The notes under the pieces were generated by a model. That model ran no database searches. It saw only the letters and a list, made by a program, of their open reading frames with translations, and was not told the origin of the DNA. Made by a program: the position numbers and the translations under genes. This document shows positions 2,181 through 33,970 of a stretch of 33,970 bases of DNA, piece after piece; positions within the stretch are counted from its first letter, which is position 1, and the number at the start of each line of letters is the position of its first letter. This DNA comes from a virus: IMG/VR virus record IMGVR_UViG_3300034021_000264, positions 1 through 33,970 of that record. One strand, 5' to 3'.

Positions 2181-3047
2181 TTGTTCCTACTTTGTGCATT
2201 CGGGAAGCGGGGTTATGCGTTAATGGCGTATAACCTCGCTTTTTCAATCAAGCGACTTAATCCGAACGCACGAATATCATTATGGATTGACGGAGGTATC
2301 GCGTATCACATCCAAGACCCATCCGTGTTTGACCACGTTGATCATTTGACCCGCGATCAGTTCACAGACGAACGCGGAGGTGTTGACCCCGCAAAAGTCA
2401 AGACCATCGTTTACAAACTTGGCAGAAAGTACTTTGATAGATTCATGTATCTTGATGTTGACGCTATCTGCATGAACGACCCTATGCCTATGTTTGAAAG
2501 CATGAACGGGCTTGTCGTATCAACTGACGTTCTCGGAAGGGGCGGCAGAAATGACGCTATCGGTTATTCACTTTGGGCAACGAATGAGAACATTTGGCGA
2601 ACGTTCGGACTTGACGAATCGGCTACCGTTTGCGGTATTCAATCCAGTTGGATGTACTTTGAGGCTTCGGAAACGTGCGACATCATGCAGGATTACATAG
2701 ATCACTTCATGTCGGTCGGAATACCTCGCCACGTTCTTTCTCAGGCTTGGGGTGGAACGCTACCCGATGAACTTGTCTATCAAGGCGTATTTGCGAAGAT
2801 GGGATTGATTCCCGACCATCCTGACGAAATAAGGCCACTACTGTTCGGAACGCCACACGTTACCATTACAGAAGATGAAGCACGGAAACATTACTCGTTC
2901 CTTTCAATTTACGGCACAGGGCGTGACGGCACTACCACTCAGAAGAAATGGTTGAGGCTATACGACACCATTGTAAAGGAAATGAAAGCACCTTACTTAT
3001 ACCTTCAATCCGAACTAATGAAGGACAAACACCTGAACGCGAAATGA
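2181..3047 (+). CDS. Glycosyltransferase, GT-A fold (GT8-like)
   Basis: 288 residues from a TTG start. The N terminus (FLLCAFGKRGYALMAYNLAF) matches the start of GT8-like nucleotide-sugar transferases, which begin with a strand and an AxxLxxSI-type helix. LDVDAICMNDP at 91-101 holds the DxD motif (D92, D94) that binds the metal and nucleotide sugar. The only ATG near the start (2223) would cut off the first strand, so the TTG at 2181 is preferred. It is in the same frame as the upstream tail gene, nine bases after that gene's TAA. The adjacent gmd gene suggests a GDP-sugar donor. Acceptor unknown: virion protein or host surface polymer. Confidence 0.7.
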   Translation: MFLLCAFGKRGYALMAYNLAFSIKRLNPNARISLWIDGGIAYHIQDPSVFDHVDHLTRDQFTDERGGVDPAKVKTIVYKLGRKYFDRFMYLDVDAICMNDPMPMFESMNGLVVSTDVLGRGGRNDAIGYSLWATNENIWRTFGLDESATVCGIQSSWMYFEASETCDIMQDYIDHFMSVGIPRHVLSQAWGGTLPDELVYQGVFAKMGLIPDHPDEIRPLLFGTPHVTITEDEARKHYSFLSIYGTGRDGTTTQKKWLRLYDTIVKEMKAPYLYLQSELMKDKHLNAK

Positions 3048-4018
3048 AGGCATTGATAACGGGGGCAAACGGCCAAATTGCCTCATATATGGCCGAACTA
3101 CTCATTGAGAAGGGCTACGAAGTTCACGGAACGATTCGCAGAAACTCAGTACCCGAATCTCAGACCACGCGGATTGAAGGGTTACACGCTGACGGATCAA
3201 TCAAACTTCACTACGCTGACCTGACAGACCCTAACAGTATTCAGGGTGTAATATCCGAAGTTCAACCCGACCTGCTATTCCACTACGCGGCACAATCGCA
3301 CGTTCAAATATCATACGAACTCCCTCAGTACACTCTTGACACGAACGGAGGCGGTACGCTTTCGATACTGGAGGCGGTTCGGAAGTTCTCGCCACATACG
3401 CGCATCTACAATAGTTCTACATCTGAAATGTTCGGGAACAATGTCGATGCAGACGGATATCAGCGCGAGACAACGCCAATGAATCCAGTTTCACCTTACG
3501 GTTGTTCCAAACTCTACGCTCATACCCTTTGCGCCAACTATCGGAACGCTTACGGCCTGAAAGTCTATTCAGGTATCATGTTCAATTCGGAAAGCCCAAG
3601 ACGCGGAATCAACTTCGTAACGAACAAGGTGGTGAAAGAGGCAGTCAACATTCACCTCGGCAAATCGCAATATCTTACATTGGGCAATCTTAATTCATTC
3701 AGGGATTGGTCACACGCTAAAGATTCAGTTCGGGCGCATTACGCACTACTTCAATTGCCAGAAGCTGCCGATTACGTGATAGCAACTGGCATCACTCATT
3801 CGGTTCAAACACTCGTAGATGTGGTTTTCAATAAACTTGGATTAGACCCAATTAAGCACGTCCGAACATCTGAAAAGTACCTAAGACCCGAAGAACTACA
3901 CTACCTACGCGGTGACGCTTCAAAGTTCAAAGATGCCACAGGATGGAAACCCGAACATTCCTTTGATTCTCTTATTGATGACATGATCGCGTACTGGCTG
4001 AATGATAACGGTAAATGA
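3044..4018 (+). CDS. gmd: GDP-mannose 4,6-dehydratase
   Basis: 324 residues from the ATG at 3044, which overlaps the previous stop (ATGA). An extended short-chain dehydrogenase: the NAD(P) loop is GANGQIAS at 7-14 (the last glycine of GxxGxxG is alanine), STSEMFG at 125-131 gives the catalytic Thr126 and Glu128, and SPYGCSK at 150-156 gives Tyr152 and Lys156. The long sequence match to the Gmd pattern (for example GYEVHGTIRR, SFRDWSHAKD) separates it from other SDRs. It converts GDP-mannose to GDP-4-keto-6-deoxymannose, the substrate of the Fcl encoded at 15140. It is somewhat shorter than typical bacterial Gmd, with a compact C terminus. The terminase gene overlaps its 3' end by 17 bases. 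Confidence 0.9.
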   Translation: MKALITGANGQIASYMAELLIEKGYEVHGTIRRNSVPESQTTRIEGLHADGSIKLHYADLTDPNSIQGVISEVQPDLLFHYAAQSHVQISYELPQYTLDTNGGGTLSILEAVRKFSPHTRIYNSSTSEMFGNNVDADGYQRETTPMNPVSPYGCSKLYAHTLCANYRNAYGLKVYSGIMFNSESPRRGINFVTNKVVKEAVNIHLGKSQYLTLGNLNSFRDWSHAKDSVRAHYALLQLPEAADYVIATGITHSVQTLVDVVFNKLGLDPIKHVRTSEKYLRPEELHYLRGDASKFKDATGWKPEHSFDSLIDDMIAYWLNDNGK

Positions 4019-14975: not shown

Positions 14976-15143
14976 ATGGGGCAAATAATACTAGCCGTAA
15001 TAATACTAGCAATCTACTTTGCGCCTTCAATAATGGGGTGGGATAAAAAGAATATCGCTGCAATTATCGCGCTTAACCTATTTCTAGGTTGGACATTCAT
15101 TGGATGGGTGGTTGCCCTTGTTTGGTCGTTGACTAAGGAATGA
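14976..15143 (+). CDS. imm: Superinfection immunity protein (Imm family)
   Basis: 55 residues, starting MGQIILAVIILAIYFAPSIM. The arrangement of a first hydrophobic helix ending in YFAPSIMG, a short basic loop (WDKKN), then ALNLFLGWTFIGWVVALVW matches the superinfection immunity family (PF14373-type, including phage T4 Imm), whose hallmark is NxxxGWTxxGWxxALxW. T4 Imm acts at the inner membrane to block DNA entry by related phages. Two transmembrane helices are expected. The gene starts three bases after the minor head gene and its stop overlaps the ATG of fcl. The family call rests on the well-conserved second helix; the role in exclusion is from known members. Confidence 0.85.
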   Translation: MGQIILAVIILAIYFAPSIMGWDKKNIAAIIALNLFLGWTFIGWVVALVWSLTKE

Positions 15144-16033
15144 GCGTATATGTAGCTGGACATACTGGAATGGTCGGTTCATCCATCGTTAGGAGGCTTG
15201 GAAAAGACAACGTAATTACCCGAACATCAAGCGAATTAGACCTTCGGAATCAAGCCGAGGTTAATGCGTTCTTTGCTGAGAATAGACCCGAATACGTGTA
15301 TCTATGCGCTGCAAAGGTCGGAGGCATCAATGCCAATAATAAGTACCGTGCTGAGTTCATTTACGACAACCTTATCATTCATACCAACGTCATACACGCG
15401 GCCTATCTTAACGGAGTGAAAAGGCTCATTTTTCTAGGCTCGTCATGTGTATATCCTAAGTTTGCACCACAGCCTATCAAAGAGGAATATTTATTGACAG
15501 GCGAACTTGAACCGACAAACGAGCCTTATGCCATCGCCAAGATCGCAGGGTTGAAAATGTGTGAAGCGTATCGTCATCAATACGGGTGTGATTTCTTTAC
15601 GGTCATGCCGCCTAATCTATTCGGTATAGGTGACAATTACCATCCGCATGATTCGCATGTCATCGCATCTATGATGCGTAAATTCCATCATGCCAAGGAG
15701 AACGGAACTGATGTTGAACTTTGGGGAGATGGCACACCATTAAGGGAGGTGATGTGCGTAGACGCTTTGGCCGCGTCAATCGTTGAACTGATGGAGAACG
15801 GAACGGAACACAATTACATGAACATCGGTTCGGGTCAAGAGTTTTCAGTAAGCGAACTGGCCGAAATAATCGCCACGGTTATAGGGTTCAATGGTCGGGT
15901 CGTTTGGAATGCCGAATATCCGAACGGAACGCCCCGTAAGCTGATGGATTCAAGCCGTCACGGGTCTGTTGATTTCGACATGGTCGAATCTTTACGGAAA
16001 GCATATAACGACTACCTTAGCCGTCACGCATGA
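15140..16033 (+). CDS. fcl: GDP-L-fucose synthase
   Basis: 297 residues, an epimerase-reductase of the SDR family. The NADP loop is GHTGMVGS at 7-14. GSSCVYPKFAPQPIKEEYL at 100-118 gives the catalytic Ser101 and Cys103, and PYAIAKIAG at 129-137 gives Tyr130 and Lys134; the histidine of DSHVIASMMRKFH corresponds to the catalytic His of the E. coli enzyme. PLREVMCVDALA replaces the usual PLREFLHVDDLA. The enzyme turns GDP-4-keto-6-deoxymannose into GDP-L-fucose, so it completes the pathway begun by Gmd at 3044. It is about 20 residues shorter than the E. coli enzyme at the C-terminal end. Its start overlaps the immunity gene and its end overlaps the next glycosyltransferase-like gene. Confidence 0.92.
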   Translation: MSVYVAGHTGMVGSSIVRRLGKDNVITRTSSELDLRNQAEVNAFFAENRPEYVYLCAAKVGGINANNKYRAEFIYDNLIIHTNVIHAAYLNGVKRLIFLGSSCVYPKFAPQPIKEEYLLTGELEPTNEPYAIAKIAGLKMCEAYRHQYGCDFFTVMPPNLFGIGDNYHPHDSHVIASMMRKFHHAKENGTDVELWGDGTPLREVMCVDALAASIVELMENGTEHNYMNIGSGQEFSVSELAEIIATVIGFNGRVVWNAEYPNGTPRKLMDSSRHGSVDFDMVESLRKAYNDYLSRHA

Positions 16034-16725
16034 CAGTAGTAATGACATCCATATCACCGAAGCATACAAACGGTGACGTGCAGAAACAAGCGATTGAAAG
16101 TTGGAAGGAATTCGGCTTTCGGGTGTTGTCGTTCAACGCACCTTCAGAGATTGAAGTTCTGAAAGCCGACTATGACGTTGAGTTTGTGCCATGCTTCCGA
16201 ACGATGGAAGGTCTTTTCAATATTCCTTACGTGCCGATTTCAGCGTTCATTGACTACGCCAAAGAACACGGATTGGAGCAAGTAATGCTTATCAATTCGG
16301 ACATCGTTATCAAAGACCCAACGAACCGACTTAACGACTATCTCCATCACGCACATCACGGTTTGATATTCAGCAACAGGCACGATCATAACGGAGACTT
16401 TGCTAACCCGATCGTGTATTCATTCGGTTTCGATGTTTTCGTTATTCACAAGAACTTTTACCACCTGATACCGCAGTCTATGTTCTGTATGGGGCAGACG
16501 TGGTGGGATTACTGGATTCCATACCGCTTCATAACGAATAAGATTCCCGCGTACTTGGTCAAGGAAATAATGTTCTATCACATGAGGCACAACGTCCAAT
16601 ACTCAACCGAACAATGGAATTACATGACGCGTCACTTCCAATGGATTGAGAACTTTATGCCAAGTCAAACACCCGCAGGGGTCAACCACAGGGTTTACAG
16701 AACTATTAGACAATCAGCTATATGA
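16030..16725 (+). CDS. Glycosyltransferase-like protein (GT-A type)
   Basis: 231 residues, no signal peptide. QVMLINSDIVIKDP around 84-97 has the hydrophobic strand followed by SD of a GT-A metal-binding motif. The first 60 residues follow a GT-A nucleotide-binding pattern (TVVMTSISP, AIESWKEFGFRVLSF). WWDYWIPYRF and FYHMRH in the C-terminal half resemble acceptor-side motifs seen in many capsular or surface glycosyltransferases. Gene overlap with fcl (ATGA) suggests a fucose-related acceptor or donor, but specificity cannot be read from the sequence. Confidence 0.6.
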   Translation: MTVVMTSISPKHTNGDVQKQAIESWKEFGFRVLSFNAPSEIEVLKADYDVEFVPCFRTMEGLFNIPYVPISAFIDYAKEHGLEQVMLINSDIVIKDPTNRLNDYLHHAHHGLIFSNRHDHNGDFANPIVYSFGFDVFVIHKNFYHLIPQSMFCMGQTWWDYWIPYRFITNKIPAYLVKEIMFYHMRHNVQYSTEQWNYMTRHFQWIENFMPSQTPAGVNHRVYRTIRQSAI

Positions 16726-17414
16726 ACGTAGATATTTTTATTCGCACGTATTCAAAAGACATTGACTGGCTGCACATCGCTTTAGCATCAATTCAGCGTC
16801 ACGTCACGGGCTATCGGAATATCATAATCACTATTCCAGACAAGAATCTGCTATCAATGTTGACCATTGAGAAGGTGATTCAGGTTGACGATATGCAGGA
16901 CGGTTATATCGGCCAACAGTTGACAAAGATGGAGGCTTGGAAATACACCGATGCCGATGCCATTGTATTTTGGGATTCTGACGTTATAGCTTGTGAACCC
17001 GTGGACGTTTCGGAATGGATCAAGGACGGTAAGCCGATCATTTGGAAAACCAAATATGAACTTACACAAACACCTTGGAGGCCGATAACTGAAAAGGCGG
17101 TCGGTTTTGATGTTGAGTGGGAATACATGCGAAGGATGCCGTTGACCTATCTACGTTCAACGTTAGTTGATTGTCAGGCGTTTATAGAGGGTGTTCATAA
17201 ACGGCCGTTGCGTAATTACCTTAGTTCCGTGCCGCACAGGGCTTTCAGCGAGTTCAACGCGATCGGGGCTTATGCTGAAAAGTACCTAGCCGACCAGTAC
17301 CACTTTCAAGACACCGAAACGGGCGATCTACCAAAGAACAAGGTTAGGCAGTTTTGGAGTTGGGGCGGGTTGACCGATGAAGTTATGGCAGAAATTGGAA
17401 CATACTTAACATGA
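16722..17414 (+). CDS. Glycosyltransferase, DUF6492-like
   Basis: 230 residues. The start MNVDIFIRTYSKDIDWLHIA and the DxD-containing strand IVFWDSDVIACEP (D85, D87) fit the DUF6492 family, a GT-A-fold group often found in polysaccharide loci. IRTYSKD near the N terminus corresponds to the nucleotide-binding strand. A C-terminal segment (HFQDTETGDLPKNKVRQFWS) completes the domain. ATGA overlaps on both sides place it in one operon with fcl and the methyltransferases. The sugar donor is unknown; GDP-fucose is the obvious candidate because its synthase is in the same operon. Confidence 0.65.
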   Translation: MNVDIFIRTYSKDIDWLHIALASIQRHVTGYRNIIITIPDKNLLSMLTIEKVIQVDDMQDGYIGQQLTKMEAWKYTDADAIVFWDSDVIACEPVDVSEWIKDGKPIIWKTKYELTQTPWRPITEKAVGFDVEWEYMRRMPLTYLRSTLVDCQAFIEGVHKRPLRNYLSSVPHRAFSEFNAIGAYAEKYLADQYHFQDTETGDLPKNKVRQFWSWGGLTDEVMAEIGTYLT

Positions 17415-17977
17415 AACTGACCGACCTTAAAAGCCGATACGACATAGGCCACGTACTCACTGAAATGGGTCTGTTAGGCCGTGGTGTTGAGGTTGGCGTT
17501 GCGTTCGGTGAAAATGCTGAGATCATTCTTGACAGTTGCGAAATAAGCCAATTGATATTGGTTGACCCTTGGAACTACGTACCGAACGAGAACCCGAAAG
17601 GCTTTGCCGATGCTATCAAGGATTGGAGTGGTTGCTATCTATACTGTGAGGATAAGTTGAGGCGGTTCGGTGACCGTGCCGTTATGACAAGGCTTTCAAG
17701 CGTTCAGGGTGCAAGGGCATTCCAGAACAACTCACTTGACTTCGTTTACATTGACGCTAACCACATGAGGCCGTACATTGACAACGACCTGAATGCGTGG
17801 TTTGATAAGGTCAAGAAAGGCGGTATCTTCGGAGGTCACGATTACCATAACGTCAACACCGAAAACTATCAATGCAATGTCAAAGATGCGGTTGACGAGT
17901 TCTTTTCACAGACGAATTACACTATTCACGTAACCAACGCGGAGGGCGATGCACCTTCGTGGTACATTATCAAATGA
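17411..17977 (+). CDS. Class I SAM-dependent methyltransferase
   Basis: 188 residues, Rossmann-like. Motif I is GVEVGVAFGE (25-34), followed by the acidic strand end ILVDPWN that binds the SAM ribose, then NSLDFVYIDANHM for motif III and KKGGIFGGHDYHN for the next strand. The pattern matches the Methyltransf_24 group, which includes sugar O-methyltransferases of surface polysaccharide clusters. It overlaps both neighbours by four bases and is followed by another methyltransferase. A likely job is to methylate a sugar placed by the nearby glycosyltransferases; this is inference. Confidence 0.8.
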   Translation: MKLTDLKSRYDIGHVLTEMGLLGRGVEVGVAFGENAEIILDSCEISQLILVDPWNYVPNENPKGFADAIKDWSGCYLYCEDKLRRFGDRAVMTRLSSVQGARAFQNNSLDFVYIDANHMRPYIDNDLNAWFDKVKKGGIFGGHDYHNVNTENYQCNVKDAVDEFFSQTNYTIHVTNAEGDAPSWYIIK

Positions 17978-18654
17978 GAAAAGTAGAACTAAAGAACGGT
18001 AGAACCGTTGGGCTGATTGAAGGTGACTCACATATAGGAAAGTGGGTCGAAATGGAGGGGCGATTAGACCACGACAGAAACATGCTCCCACTACTCGACC
18101 CATACATTCACAAAGGATTCACAGTTCTTGACGTTGGCGGATACGTTGGCGATCATACGGAATACTATGTCGAACGTGTCGGCAGAACAGGCAAGGTCTA
18201 TGCGTTTGAACCGAACCCGAAAGCGTTTGAATGTTTGGAGTTCAACATGCGTGACCATAAGAACGTGCTATGCTTGAATGTCGGGGCAAGCGATAAGGAA
18301 CATTCAATTTCACTGGCTCAGGATGCCAACGGTGGCGCGGCCTATGCGATTGAGGGCGATGACTTCAAATGTATCACCATTGATTCCCTTGGACTTGATG
18401 CGTGTGACTTCATTAAGATGGACTGTGAGGGCTTTGAGTGGAACGCATTAAAAGGGGCTGAAAAGACAATAGCGAAATTTCGCCCAACAATGTTGCTTGA
18501 AATAAACAAGGGCGCGTTACTTCGTCAGGGTGCGAGTGTGAGTTACGTATTCGGTTGGTTGTCGGCTAATGGGTATTCGTACAGGAACATCTATTCCGAG
18601 CAAGGAATGGACGATGACCAGTTCGATATACTTTGCCAACCTATTAATTCGTAA
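17974..18654 (+). CDS. FkbM family methyltransferase
   Basis: 226 residues from the ATG at 17974 (ATGA overlap); an in-frame GTG at 17959 is possible but less likely. SAM-binding motif I is VLDVGGYVGDHT at 51-62; YAFEPNPKAFECLEFN and FIKMDCEGFEWNALKGAE are hallmark segments of the FkbM family, whose members often O-methylate sugars. It ends the operon that begins with the immunity gene at 14976, and a new promoter lies at its 3' end. With the preceding methyltransferase it suggests two methylation steps on one glycan. Confidence 0.88.
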   Translation: MRKVELKNGRTVGLIEGDSHIGKWVEMEGRLDHDRNMLPLLDPYIHKGFTVLDVGGYVGDHTEYYVERVGRTGKVYAFEPNPKAFECLEFNMRDHKNVLCLNVGASDKEHSISLAQDANGGAAYAIEGDDFKCITIDSLGLDACDFIKMDCEGFEWNALKGAEKTIAKFRPTMLLEINKGALLRQGASVSYVFGWLSANGYSYRNIYSEQGMDDDQFDILCQPINS

Positions 18655-32339: not shown

Positions 32340-32342
32340 CCG

Positions 32343-32371
32343 AAAGCCTCCGTAACTGGGGGCTTTTTTTT
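32343..32371 (+). terminator. Rho-independent terminator
   Basis: AAAGCCTCC at 32343-32351 pairs with GGGGGCTTT at 32358-32366 (one T-G pair), loop six bases, followed by a run of eight T from 32364. Strong terminator of the operon from 31104. Confidence 0.8.
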
Positions 32372-32377
32372 GTTTTT

Positions 32378-32639
32378 GGACGTATTGTTTTGACCGGTGG
32401 GCGAACGTTATTTTTAACGCGTCCTAAATTTACCCAATAAAAATAGGCATTGGACTCTTTGGACGAATTAAAGCGTTCCTATACGTTATATCTATTTGCT
32501 TTTGATAAAAGATAAGTTTTTATTTTTTTGTTTAAAAAATCAAATCAATTCGTCCATACGTCCAAAGTCAATAGCAGTAAAGGTTTGATAAAGTCCGAAT
32601 CTGTATTTTAATTAATCCAAACATCCTTTTTATACGTCC
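32378..32639. repeat. Six degenerate CGTCC repeats
   Basis: Copies at 32378-32382 and 32461-32465 (as GGACG) and 32420-32424, 32551-32555, 32559-32563, 32635-32639 (as CGTCC). Flanks agree with (A/T)CGTCC(A/T)AAA, for example TACGTCCAAAG, TTCGTCCAAAG and ACGTCCTAAAAC. The region 32380-32690 is AT-rich with poly-T and poly-A runs. This looks like an iteron cluster of a replication origin or a set of regulator sites; no gene is seen in 32340-32799. Confidence 0.6.
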
Positions 32640-32662
32640 TAAAACAAATTTTAACCTATAGG

Positions 32663-32691
32663 TTGTATATTCAAATAGTTTTGTATATTTG
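32663..32691 (+). promoter_or_regulatory. Promoter of the leader RNA and 32800 gene
   Basis: TTG at 32663-32665, 18 bases, then TATATTTG at 32684-32691, a good Bacteroidota match. Transcription should start near 32698, just before hairpin 1 of the leader RNA. Confidence 0.65.
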
Positions 32692-32700
32692 CACCGTTCC

Positions 32701-32788
32701 ATCGGGTAGCAGACCGATAAACTGAATAAAGACATTTAAGACCCATTCGAGGGAGGAGCTGCTACTCCAAACTCGGCTGGGTTTTTTT
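32701..32788 (+). ncRNA. Structured leader RNA with attenuator-like terminator
   Basis: Hairpin 1: ATCGG (32701-32705) and CCGAT (32714-32718) around the loop GTAGCAGA. Hairpin 2: ACCCA (32741-32745) with TGGGT (32778-32782), CGAG (32748-32751) with CTCG (32772-32775), and an inner GGAG (32755-32758) with CTCC (32765-32768) around CTGCTA, followed by T7 at 32782-32788. GTAGCAG in loop 1 is the exact complement of CTGCTAC at 32759-32765, so the loops could kiss. The T7 run makes hairpin 2 a terminator; 12 bases later the next gene starts. Either a stand-alone small RNA or an attenuator. Confidence 0.6.
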
Positions 32789-32799
32789 ATTGTAAAAAA

Positions 32800-33069
32800 A
32801 TGGAAAATATAATGTGTTGCAGAAGTGATGGAGGAGGCTTTACTCCATACGATAAACGGGTAAAAAGTGCTATATTAAGCGCAAAAAAAAGTGGGGCAGA
32901 TTTGTCAGGCTTATTAGTTGCGGAAGATCATAAGGGTCTTTTATGGCTAACGTTTGTAGTAGGTGATTTTAAGCACGGAGTTACAGTAAAAGATTTGCAT
33001 TTGATAGCCAAGGCTTGGGAGGATGAAGGTGAGTTATACGAGGAAGTTTACATAATTCAAATTCAATGA
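32800..33069 (+). CDS. Hypothetical protein (89 aa)
   Basis: 89 residues starting MENIMCCRSDGGGFTPYDKR; the ATG at 32812 is an alternative start. The middle is beta-rich (GLLVAEDHKGLLWLTFVVGD), the end helical and acidic. Nothing recognised. It follows the leader RNA terminator directly and overlaps the next gene by four bases. Codons are clearly more AT-rich than in the structural genes, as in the next gene. Confidence 0.55.
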   Translation: MENIMCCRSDGGGFTPYDKRVKSAILSAKKSGADLSGLLVAEDHKGLLWLTFVVGDFKHGVTVKDLHLIAKAWEDEGELYEEVYIIQIQ

Positions 33070-33970
33070 GCCAGTTAGTCACAATATTTAAAAATATTAC
33101 TTCATCAGCAACAGGATTTAATAGGTCAGTTGACTTTTGTTTAGACCGTATCCGGAACGGAAATAGTAAAGAACTATTGAACCGAATTAGATTAGAACCC
33201 GAAAAGGATGCAAGAAATAAATTAAAGATGGGTTTGCCATCAATATGTTTTTCTGGTACTTTTTCAAATAGGTCTGCTGCTGGTTTAATTCAACATAGTA
33301 GTTTAATCTGTTTAGATTTTGATGGGTTTAAGGATAGCGAAGAAATGCAAGCCTACCGTGATACCATACAAGCATGGGAATATACGTTTGCTCTTTTTAC
33401 ATCTCCAAGCGGTGATGGGTTAAAGGTGTTGGTTCGAATACCACCAGATGCAGAAAATCACAAAGGTTACTTTGATTCGTTAGCTGAAAAATGGGATTGC
33501 GAGCAATTTGATAAAGGCACAAGCGATGTAAGCCGTGTATGTTACGAAAGTTATGATCCTAATTTGTATCATAATCCTGACGCATTGGTATGGATGACAA
33601 TCGCAGAACCTGACGAGGATGGAGTAGGTGGACATTGCGACCAAGTAATGATACCAGTTGCAAGCGAGAATCAAATAATTGAAAGGTTGCAAAAGTGGTG
33701 GAGTATGAAATACGGTTCTACAAAAGGAAGTCGAAATAATAACCTATACCGTTTTGCAAATGCTTTAAATTCTTTTGGAATATCTCAATCTGAAGCAGAT
33801 AGGTATTTAAAACAGTTTGCAGAAAAAGACTTTAAGACAGACGAAATAGAACGATTAGTAAAGTCTGCATACAAGCACCGTGATCGTTTTCACACACGTT
33901 TTTTTGAGGATAAAGCGGCACAGGCTAAAATAGAAAAGCTGGTTCGAAGTGGTAAAAAGGATAGTGAGAT
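33066..33970 (+). CDS. Primase-type protein, BT4734/VirE-N-like, 5' part
   Basis: ATG at 33066 overlaps the previous stop and the frame stays open to the window end (301 codons). The N-terminal domain matches the BT4734-like / VirE N-terminal family of Bacteroidota: GLPSICFSGTFSNR, then LICLDFDGFKD (D84, D86, the metal-binding acidic pair of primase-polymerases) and TSPSGDGLKVLVRIP. Residues about 200-280 form a helical region (GSRNNNLYRFANALNSFGIS) like the primase C-terminal domain that links to a helicase. Probably the replication primase(-helicase) of the phage. The 3' part is beyond the window. Confidence 0.82.
   Translation, partial: MSQLVTIFKNITSSATGFNRSVDFCLDRIRNGNSKELLNRIRLEPEKDARNKLKMGLPSICFSGTFSNRSAAGLIQHSSLICLDFDGFKDSEEMQAYRDTIQAWEYTFALFTSPSGDGLKVLVRIPPDAENHKGYFDSLAEKWDCEQFDKGTSDVSRVCYESYDPNLYHNPDALVWMTIAEPDEDGVGGHCDQVMIPVASENQIIERLQKWWSMKYGSTKGSRNNNLYRFANALNSFGISQSEADRYLKQFAEKDFKTDEIERLVKSAYKHRDRFHTRFFEDKAAQAKIEKLVRSGKKDSE

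Follow-up and report, generated by a model that had tools for sequence, protein, structure and literature searches.

The right end of this phage fragment raises a specific question: is the short RNA encoded just ahead of the primase gene a switch for that gene, and how would such a switch work? The window, meaning the whole stretch of DNA analysed, is a linear fragment of 33,970 bp from an IMG/VR virus, and its source is judged to be a Bacteroidota phage from its promoters and from primase relatives in Flavobacterium and other Bacteroidota phages. A sequence-only reading had proposed that two hairpins with complementary loops form a kissing-loop RNA, one that could govern whether transcription continues into the primase and the gene at 32800, and had named a stand-alone small RNA as the alternative.

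Parts of the leader in the window

In order, the right end of the window holds a -33 element, a -7 element, a 5' hairpin (H1), a linker, an intrinsic terminator, an ATG and the primase (Table 1). The published consensus for Bacteroidota promoters is TTTG/TAnnTTTG, and the -7 element of Flavobacterium spans -12 to -5 (PMC6847099). The promoter that had been read upstream of the hairpins is of this Bacteroidota type, with its TTG and -7 element spaced by 18 nt, and a sigma-70 scan of the promoter region gave no match. From the published -7 spacing, transcription is predicted to start at about 32696 (PMC6847099), which would place H1 at the extreme 5' end of the RNA.

Table 1 Features of the leader and of the genes behind it, in window coordinates
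Feature	Position	Strand	Basis
-33 promoter element, TTG	32663-32665	+	Sequence and published Bacteroidota consensus (PMC6847099)
-7 promoter element, TATATTTG	32684-32691	+	Sequence; Flavobacterium position (PMC6847099)
5' hairpin H1, 5 bp stem ATCGG/CCGAT, 8-nt loop GTAGCAGA	32701-32718	+	Fold; pairing kept in L337
Kissing sequence K, GTAGCAG	32706-32712	+	Exact complement of K'; covaries with K' in relatives
A-rich linker, 19 nt	32719-32737	+	13-23 nt in 15 tabulated representatives
Intrinsic terminator hairpin, 17 pairs, about -22 kcal/mol	32738-32785	+	MFE fold
Kissing sequence K', CTGCTAC, at terminator apical loop	32759-32765	+	Complement of K
Terminator U-tract (T7)	32782-32788	+	Sequence
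First gene after terminator, 89 aa, overlaps primase start	32800-33069	+	ORF
Primase, BT4734-like N-terminal domain and PriCT_1, runs off window	33066-33968	+	Domains

H1 appears in the fold exactly where it had been read, with its stem arms at 32701-32705 and 32714-32718, and in the relative L337 the stem is ACCAA/TTGGT, the letters replaced and the pairing kept. The terminator hairpin is also present, although the limits first given for it, 32741-32782, are a few bases inside those of the MFE fold. Its apical stem GGAG/CTCC (32755-32758/32765-32768) encloses the loop CTGCTA (32759-32764). The seven bases described as complementary between the loops do match exactly, but C32765 closes the apical stem, leaving six of the seven strictly in the loop. 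The distance from the T run to the ATG at 32800 had been put at 12 bases and is 11. The leader has a fold z-score of -2.4, and a homologue search with the 89-aa ORF gave none. A leader-peptide attenuator was considered and rejected: by eye, positions 32696-32790 hold no ATG or GTG ORF, and an ATG ORF of 5 to 15 codons is confined to one lineage (the L036-type leaders) and absent from the others.

The gene upstream ends in a clear intrinsic terminator (32342-32367), and the leader's operon would therefore be insulated from upstream transcription. Between that terminator and the leader, the AT-rich region 32375-32640 contains GGACG/CGTCC repeats in both orientations, which are possibly replication-origin iterons; primase relatives have different repeated words at the same place (e.g., CGACAT, GTACAC). 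Elsewhere, within the phage structural region, genes at 2948-4018 and 15140-18654 resemble nucleotide-sugar enzymes by eye, the candidates being a GDP-mannose dehydratase, a GDP-fucose synthase, and glycosyltransferase-like and methyltransferase-like proteins.

Recurrence of the leader among phages

Searching GenBank phages for DNA-level relatives of the leader gave none that was convincing, and terminase relatives (98%) stop short of this genome end. Contigs were recruited via homology to neighbouring proteins, not via the RNA, and were scanned with a structural script that seeks a terminator preceded by a hairpin, the two having complementary loops; exact complementarity of at least 6 was required, so diverged members are missed by the scanner. 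Loops that drift without staying complementary had been named beforehand as the sign that the kissing-loop reading was wrong. The relatives contradict this, as the arrangement of promoter, hairpin, complementary-loop terminator and AUG is found in about 18 lineages with 14 distinct loop sequences, varied and yet complementary.

Leaders directly 5' of primase relatives include those with loops GTCCCAT/ATGGGAC (L240) and GTACCAT/ATGGTAC (L250, L251, L253), and another kissing leader lies 5' of the primase relative in L319. Relatives of the L250 primase supplied further GTACCAT members and one with GTGCAG (L326). The window's own loops, GTAGCAG/CTGCTAC, are found in L036, L038 and L076; these came from a pattern scan with the GTAGCAG code, so that their code is not independent, though their protein relatives are, and the relatives of the L036 helicase (L296-L305) carry leaders of the GTAGCAG and GTAGCGG types. 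Relatives of the window's phosphoesterase with a leader nearby were found in L337, L338, L357, L358-L363, L378-L389, L409 and L410. Both L337 and L338 have the GTAGCAG code (with a different H1 stem in L337 and the same one in L338), eight members recruited in this way have a long H1 with the loop GTAGTGTG or GTAGTGC, and the codes of L409 and L410 are CCAGCAC and GTTCAG. A 139-bp island made up of promoter, RNA and terminator is common to the window and L338, set in unrelated flanks.

The leader is absent at 76 of 80 primase-relative loci and from the more distant relatives of the L036 helicase, at 62% (L306-L314), and it is thus optional. L332 is closely related to the window phage, but at about 15440-15620 a different structured leader occupies this place. 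It consists of a hairpin TTCGG-AATGACAC-CCGAA and a large hairpin with the apical loop CTGTCAA; the loop match is just 5 bp (TGACA/TGTCA), and a clear U-tract was not seen. Terminators about 180 nt 5' of primases in L182-L261 were rejected as kissing leaders, being the 3' ends of the upstream gene. When 395 Bacteroidota genomes were scanned for the GTAGCAG code as a pattern, 4 matches were obtained; the control with the pattern reversed gave at least as many, indicating no enrichment in bacterial chromosomes.

How often would such loops arise by chance? Units were defined as TAnnTT[TC]G followed by a leader, a terminator and a nearby ATG, and every leader was shuffled with its dinucleotides kept. 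Among the 580 distinct units in the DNA examined, a match of at least 6 between a hairpin loop and the terminator loop occurs in 26, against 2.5 in the shuffles. A match of at least 7 occurs in 23, the window's unit among them, against 0.3; near relatives are counted separately here, so that the 23 units stand for about ten lineages, and some (L036/L038) were recruited by the code itself. The earlier view that seven perfect bases are unlikely by chance is thus upheld.

Covariation can be followed within and between lineages. Nine L036-type RNAs, nearly identical elsewhere, form 30 of 30 pairs in all nine; kiss pair 22-67 is AU in five and GC in four, two pairs of H1 swap on both sides, and the terminator stem is almost unchanged. 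A double change in the kiss separates L240 from L250/L319, and loop code and length change together between L361 and L358-L389. In 14 representatives, all seven kiss pairs show changes on both sides, a count made on trimmed pieces that is partly circular (the sequences were picked for complementarity) and that illustrates rather than proves. Pairs were counted within lineages and on trimmed pieces because a MAFFT alignment of all members is structurally wrong.

Cultured carriers of the leader are Flavobacterium phages lillamy9-1, tooticki6-1 and snork6-2, Olleya phage Harreka_1, Cellulophaga phage phi19:3 and Bacteroides phage BF702P1. All but the last belong to a prediction test in which cultured phages were fetched solely via a relative of the L409 initiator protein. 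Directly 5' of the initiator gene group, the three Flavobacterium phages have GTGAGACG/CGTCTCAC, Harreka_1 has GTGGTGG/CCACCAC and phi19:3, in which the H1 stem is weak, has CTCTCACA/TGTGAGAG. A leader-loop match as long as the longest one occurred in 77 of 2000 shuffled leaders for lillamy9-1 (a figure that counts six of its eight bases), 25 of 2000 for Harreka_1 and 2 of 2000 for phi19:3, these cases having been chosen from 37 units after scanning. A second leader, GTCGTCG/CGACGAC, lies 5' of an HNH endonuclease gene in tooticki6-1 and snork6-2 (L422, L430; 3596-3692; 8 of 2000 shuffles), so one phage can carry two different loop codes. In lillamy9-1, a DUF805b RNA (RF02914, 52 bits; L421 3315-3349) lies near the position that the second leader and endonuclease hold in its relatives. 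BF702P1 (L411 13803-13960), fetched as a relative of a different initiator, has CCGCCA/TGGCGG 5' of a Bro-N/KilAC antirepressor gene; its sister phage, vB_BfrS_23, has neither leader nor antirepressor at that place. For initiator relatives in fecal, Dulem and Chlorobi phages, a promoter-terminator leader was not found 5' of that gene, and the scanned PDS1 and elemovirus regions gave no match.

Across 15 representatives the leader is 81 to 98 nt long with a linker of 13 to 23 nt, and K and K' lie within hairpin loops of the MFE fold in nearly all. The helices of H1, kiss and terminator sum to 25 to 34 bp, including L360 and L361 with their long H1 and short terminator, and the linker has roughly the length needed to bridge the helix stack. 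This geometry is consistent with an intramolecular kiss, though the point rests on one long-H1 lineage. Complementarity ends at the loop edges, or at most 1 to 3 bases beyond them, in most lineages, which argues for a kiss rather than strand exchange; lillamy is an exception, its MFE fold using long-range pairing. Between lineages, H1, linker and terminator show no relationship in sequence, and a riboswitch was rejected since no conserved ligand-binding core was found. From U-tract to ATG the distance is about 0 to 20 nt in nearly all.

The proximity to replication genes seen in the window recurs more widely, and in nearly every case a replication gene starts a few bases past the terminator. 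The proteins behind it are mostly BT4734_N primases or replication initiators whose N-terminal parts are of several unrelated types (HTH_36, Lin1244_N, DUF6291, DnaD-like), and the only others are one antirepressor (BF702P1) and one HNH endonuclease (tooticki6-1, snork6-2). The RNA is kept while the gene behind it is swapped, so that leader and gene are exchanged independently. In L294-L305, unrelated initiator genes are swapped behind near-identical leaders, and the helicase gene further on stays.

A proposed kiss at the terminator loop and its alternatives

What is observed is the structure, the fact that it recurs with compensatory changes in the loops, and its position immediately 5' of replication genes. 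This anatomy and conservation give good support to the proposed control of read-through; from the conservation we infer that the kiss alters termination. The reading we favour, and consider probable on these sequences, is that the leader is a cis-acting transcription attenuator gripped at its terminator loop by H1. Starting from the promoter (32663-32691), RNA polymerase would make H1 first, next the short linker, and then the terminator with a loop complementary to that of H1. The loops would kiss (6-9 bp, confined to the loops) while the terminator leaves RNA polymerase, shortly before the U-tract, and the kiss would set the split between a stop at the U-tract, giving an RNA of about 90 nt, and read-through to the gene at 32800 and the primase. 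In L036-type phages the upstream gene is transcribed away from the operon, so that transcripts from the promoter closest to the operon have to pass H1 and the terminator, and attenuation is therefore the simplest reading. As to direction, we lean towards a kiss that would oppose termination in cis, because a strong terminator needs no help. Such a terminator works without the kiss, which could also serve stability or a role in trans.

A further step is more speculative, and we offer it tentatively: the accumulating short RNA, which bears both loops, might compete in trans and so exert negative feedback on the replication genes. With similar reserve, it can be suggested that the terminator loop itself is the regulatory site, with lineage-specific orthogonal loop codes and copy-number-sensing feedback via the terminated RNA. 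Feedback could also be self-directed, as in plasmid copy-number control, with the loops of the short RNA pairing with nascent leaders of other genome copies and termination rising with copy number. Every RNA has both complementary loops, and the loop pairs differ between lineages and between the two leaders of one phage, as self-specific recognition predicts. However, intramolecular pairing over a linker of 13 to 23 nt should win over pairing in trans, and the similar helix sum (25-34 bp) suggests an intramolecular geometry, though the long-H1 members are one lineage group. Self-directed feedback is thus possible rather than expected, and it is compatible with cis attenuation as an added layer.

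The conservation of geometry but not of loop sequence can be read in another way. Rop recognises the ColE1 RNAI-RNAII complex by its shape, and a phage or host protein might similarly read the shape of the kissing complex and set termination. The downstream genes differ, however, and a common candidate protein was not identified, which makes a protein sensor rather unlikely. Slightly less likely still is a stand-alone small RNA, in which the terminated RNA of about 90 nt would be the product and have its targets in trans among other RNAs of phage or host; the kiss would then shield or display the loops, with read-through incidental. Its terminator is strong, one short RNA bears both loops, and IsrK of a prophage provides a precedent with a short terminated form and a read-through mRNA (PMC4825925). 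Under this explanation it is hard to see why an AUG should lie 0 to 20 nt past the U-tract in nearly every lineage, with swapped genes, and the loop 7-mer occurs just once more in the fragment, which is chance level. An origin RNA, a transcript that would prime or open an origin of replication among the intergenic repeats, would suit the adjoining GGACG/CGTCC repeats and replication genes, but copies of the leader also precede an antirepressor (BF702P1) and an HNH endonuclease (tooticki6-1), and we consider this very improbable. Chance complementarity in one window, which the mere 7 bases picked from 34 kb might have suggested, is refuted by recurrence and covariation.

Known systems and meaning for Bacteroidota phages

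Taken as a cis-acting attenuator, the leader can be set beside several known regulators. The ColE1 RNAI-RNAII pair with Rop controls replication through fully complementary 7-nt loops, as are found here in the L250 type, but it consists of two RNAs from opposite strands, whereas the leader is a single self-folding RNA in which one hairpin is the terminator. The P4 cI and P1-P22 c4 antisense RNAs are early-ending phage leader RNAs that control replication or antirepressor genes, a likeness to the leader; c4, in contrast, pairs with separate target sites. Attenuators of the pT181 type (the repC leader; also pIP501) have a similar layout: transcription ends early at an intrinsic terminator in the leader ahead of a replication-initiator gene, and hairpin-loop kissing serves for recognition. 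An intrinsic terminator is likewise found here in the leader of replication initiators, together with the layout of a cis attenuator: promoter, structured leader, intrinsic terminator and a gene start just behind. Control in pT181 relies on an antisense RNA made separately and on an anti-terminator helix that excludes the terminator (PMC4878617), whereas both kissing loops are here on one RNA. In a search limited to consensus-type promoters, TAnnTTTG was not found on the minus strand from 30087 to the window end. Complementarity covers 0 to 3 stem bases in most lineages (lillamy excepted), and an anti-terminator pairing like that of pT181 was rejected for most lineages because pairing stops at the loops.

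IsrK of the Gifsy-1 prophage also gives a short terminated RNA and a longer read-through mRNA from one phage promoter, as is presumed for the leader. IsrK enables translation of the longer form by acting on it in trans (PMC4825925), and no sequence kinship with the leader was seen in Rfam. Both isrK and c4 were rejected, their Rfam models giving no match at the leader. Skipping-rope RNA (RF02924), a family reported in phage sequence (PMC8501573), was rejected as well, with no covariance-model match at E<=10 in nine leader-carrying records. Across 4227 Rfam families, no match at gathering score was found at the leader in the window or in 14 leader-carrying loci, permissive searches likewise, and DUF805b at L421 3315-3349, away from the leader, was the sole match among the searched loci. 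The impression from the sequence that no known RNA family was present is thereby borne out. Because there is no Rfam match and no description of such a leader was found in the open-access papers searched, we regard the leader as a new class of RNA that belongs to a known type of regulation. It is probably, to judge from these genomes, a widespread and undescribed RNA switch for DNA-replication genes in many unrelated Bacteroidota viruses.

Bacteroidota are major gut and water bacteria, and the regulatory RNAs of their phages are little known. With the leader, it can be tested directly whether a tertiary contact between loops is able to set intrinsic termination, and the orthogonal loop pairs that occur naturally could be used as ready-made parts for RNA control. 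A compact leader that stands 5' of an antirepressor gene, an endonuclease gene and exchanged replication genes, with natural sets of matching loop codes, would show how these phages tune early genes in the absence of a conserved protein regulator.
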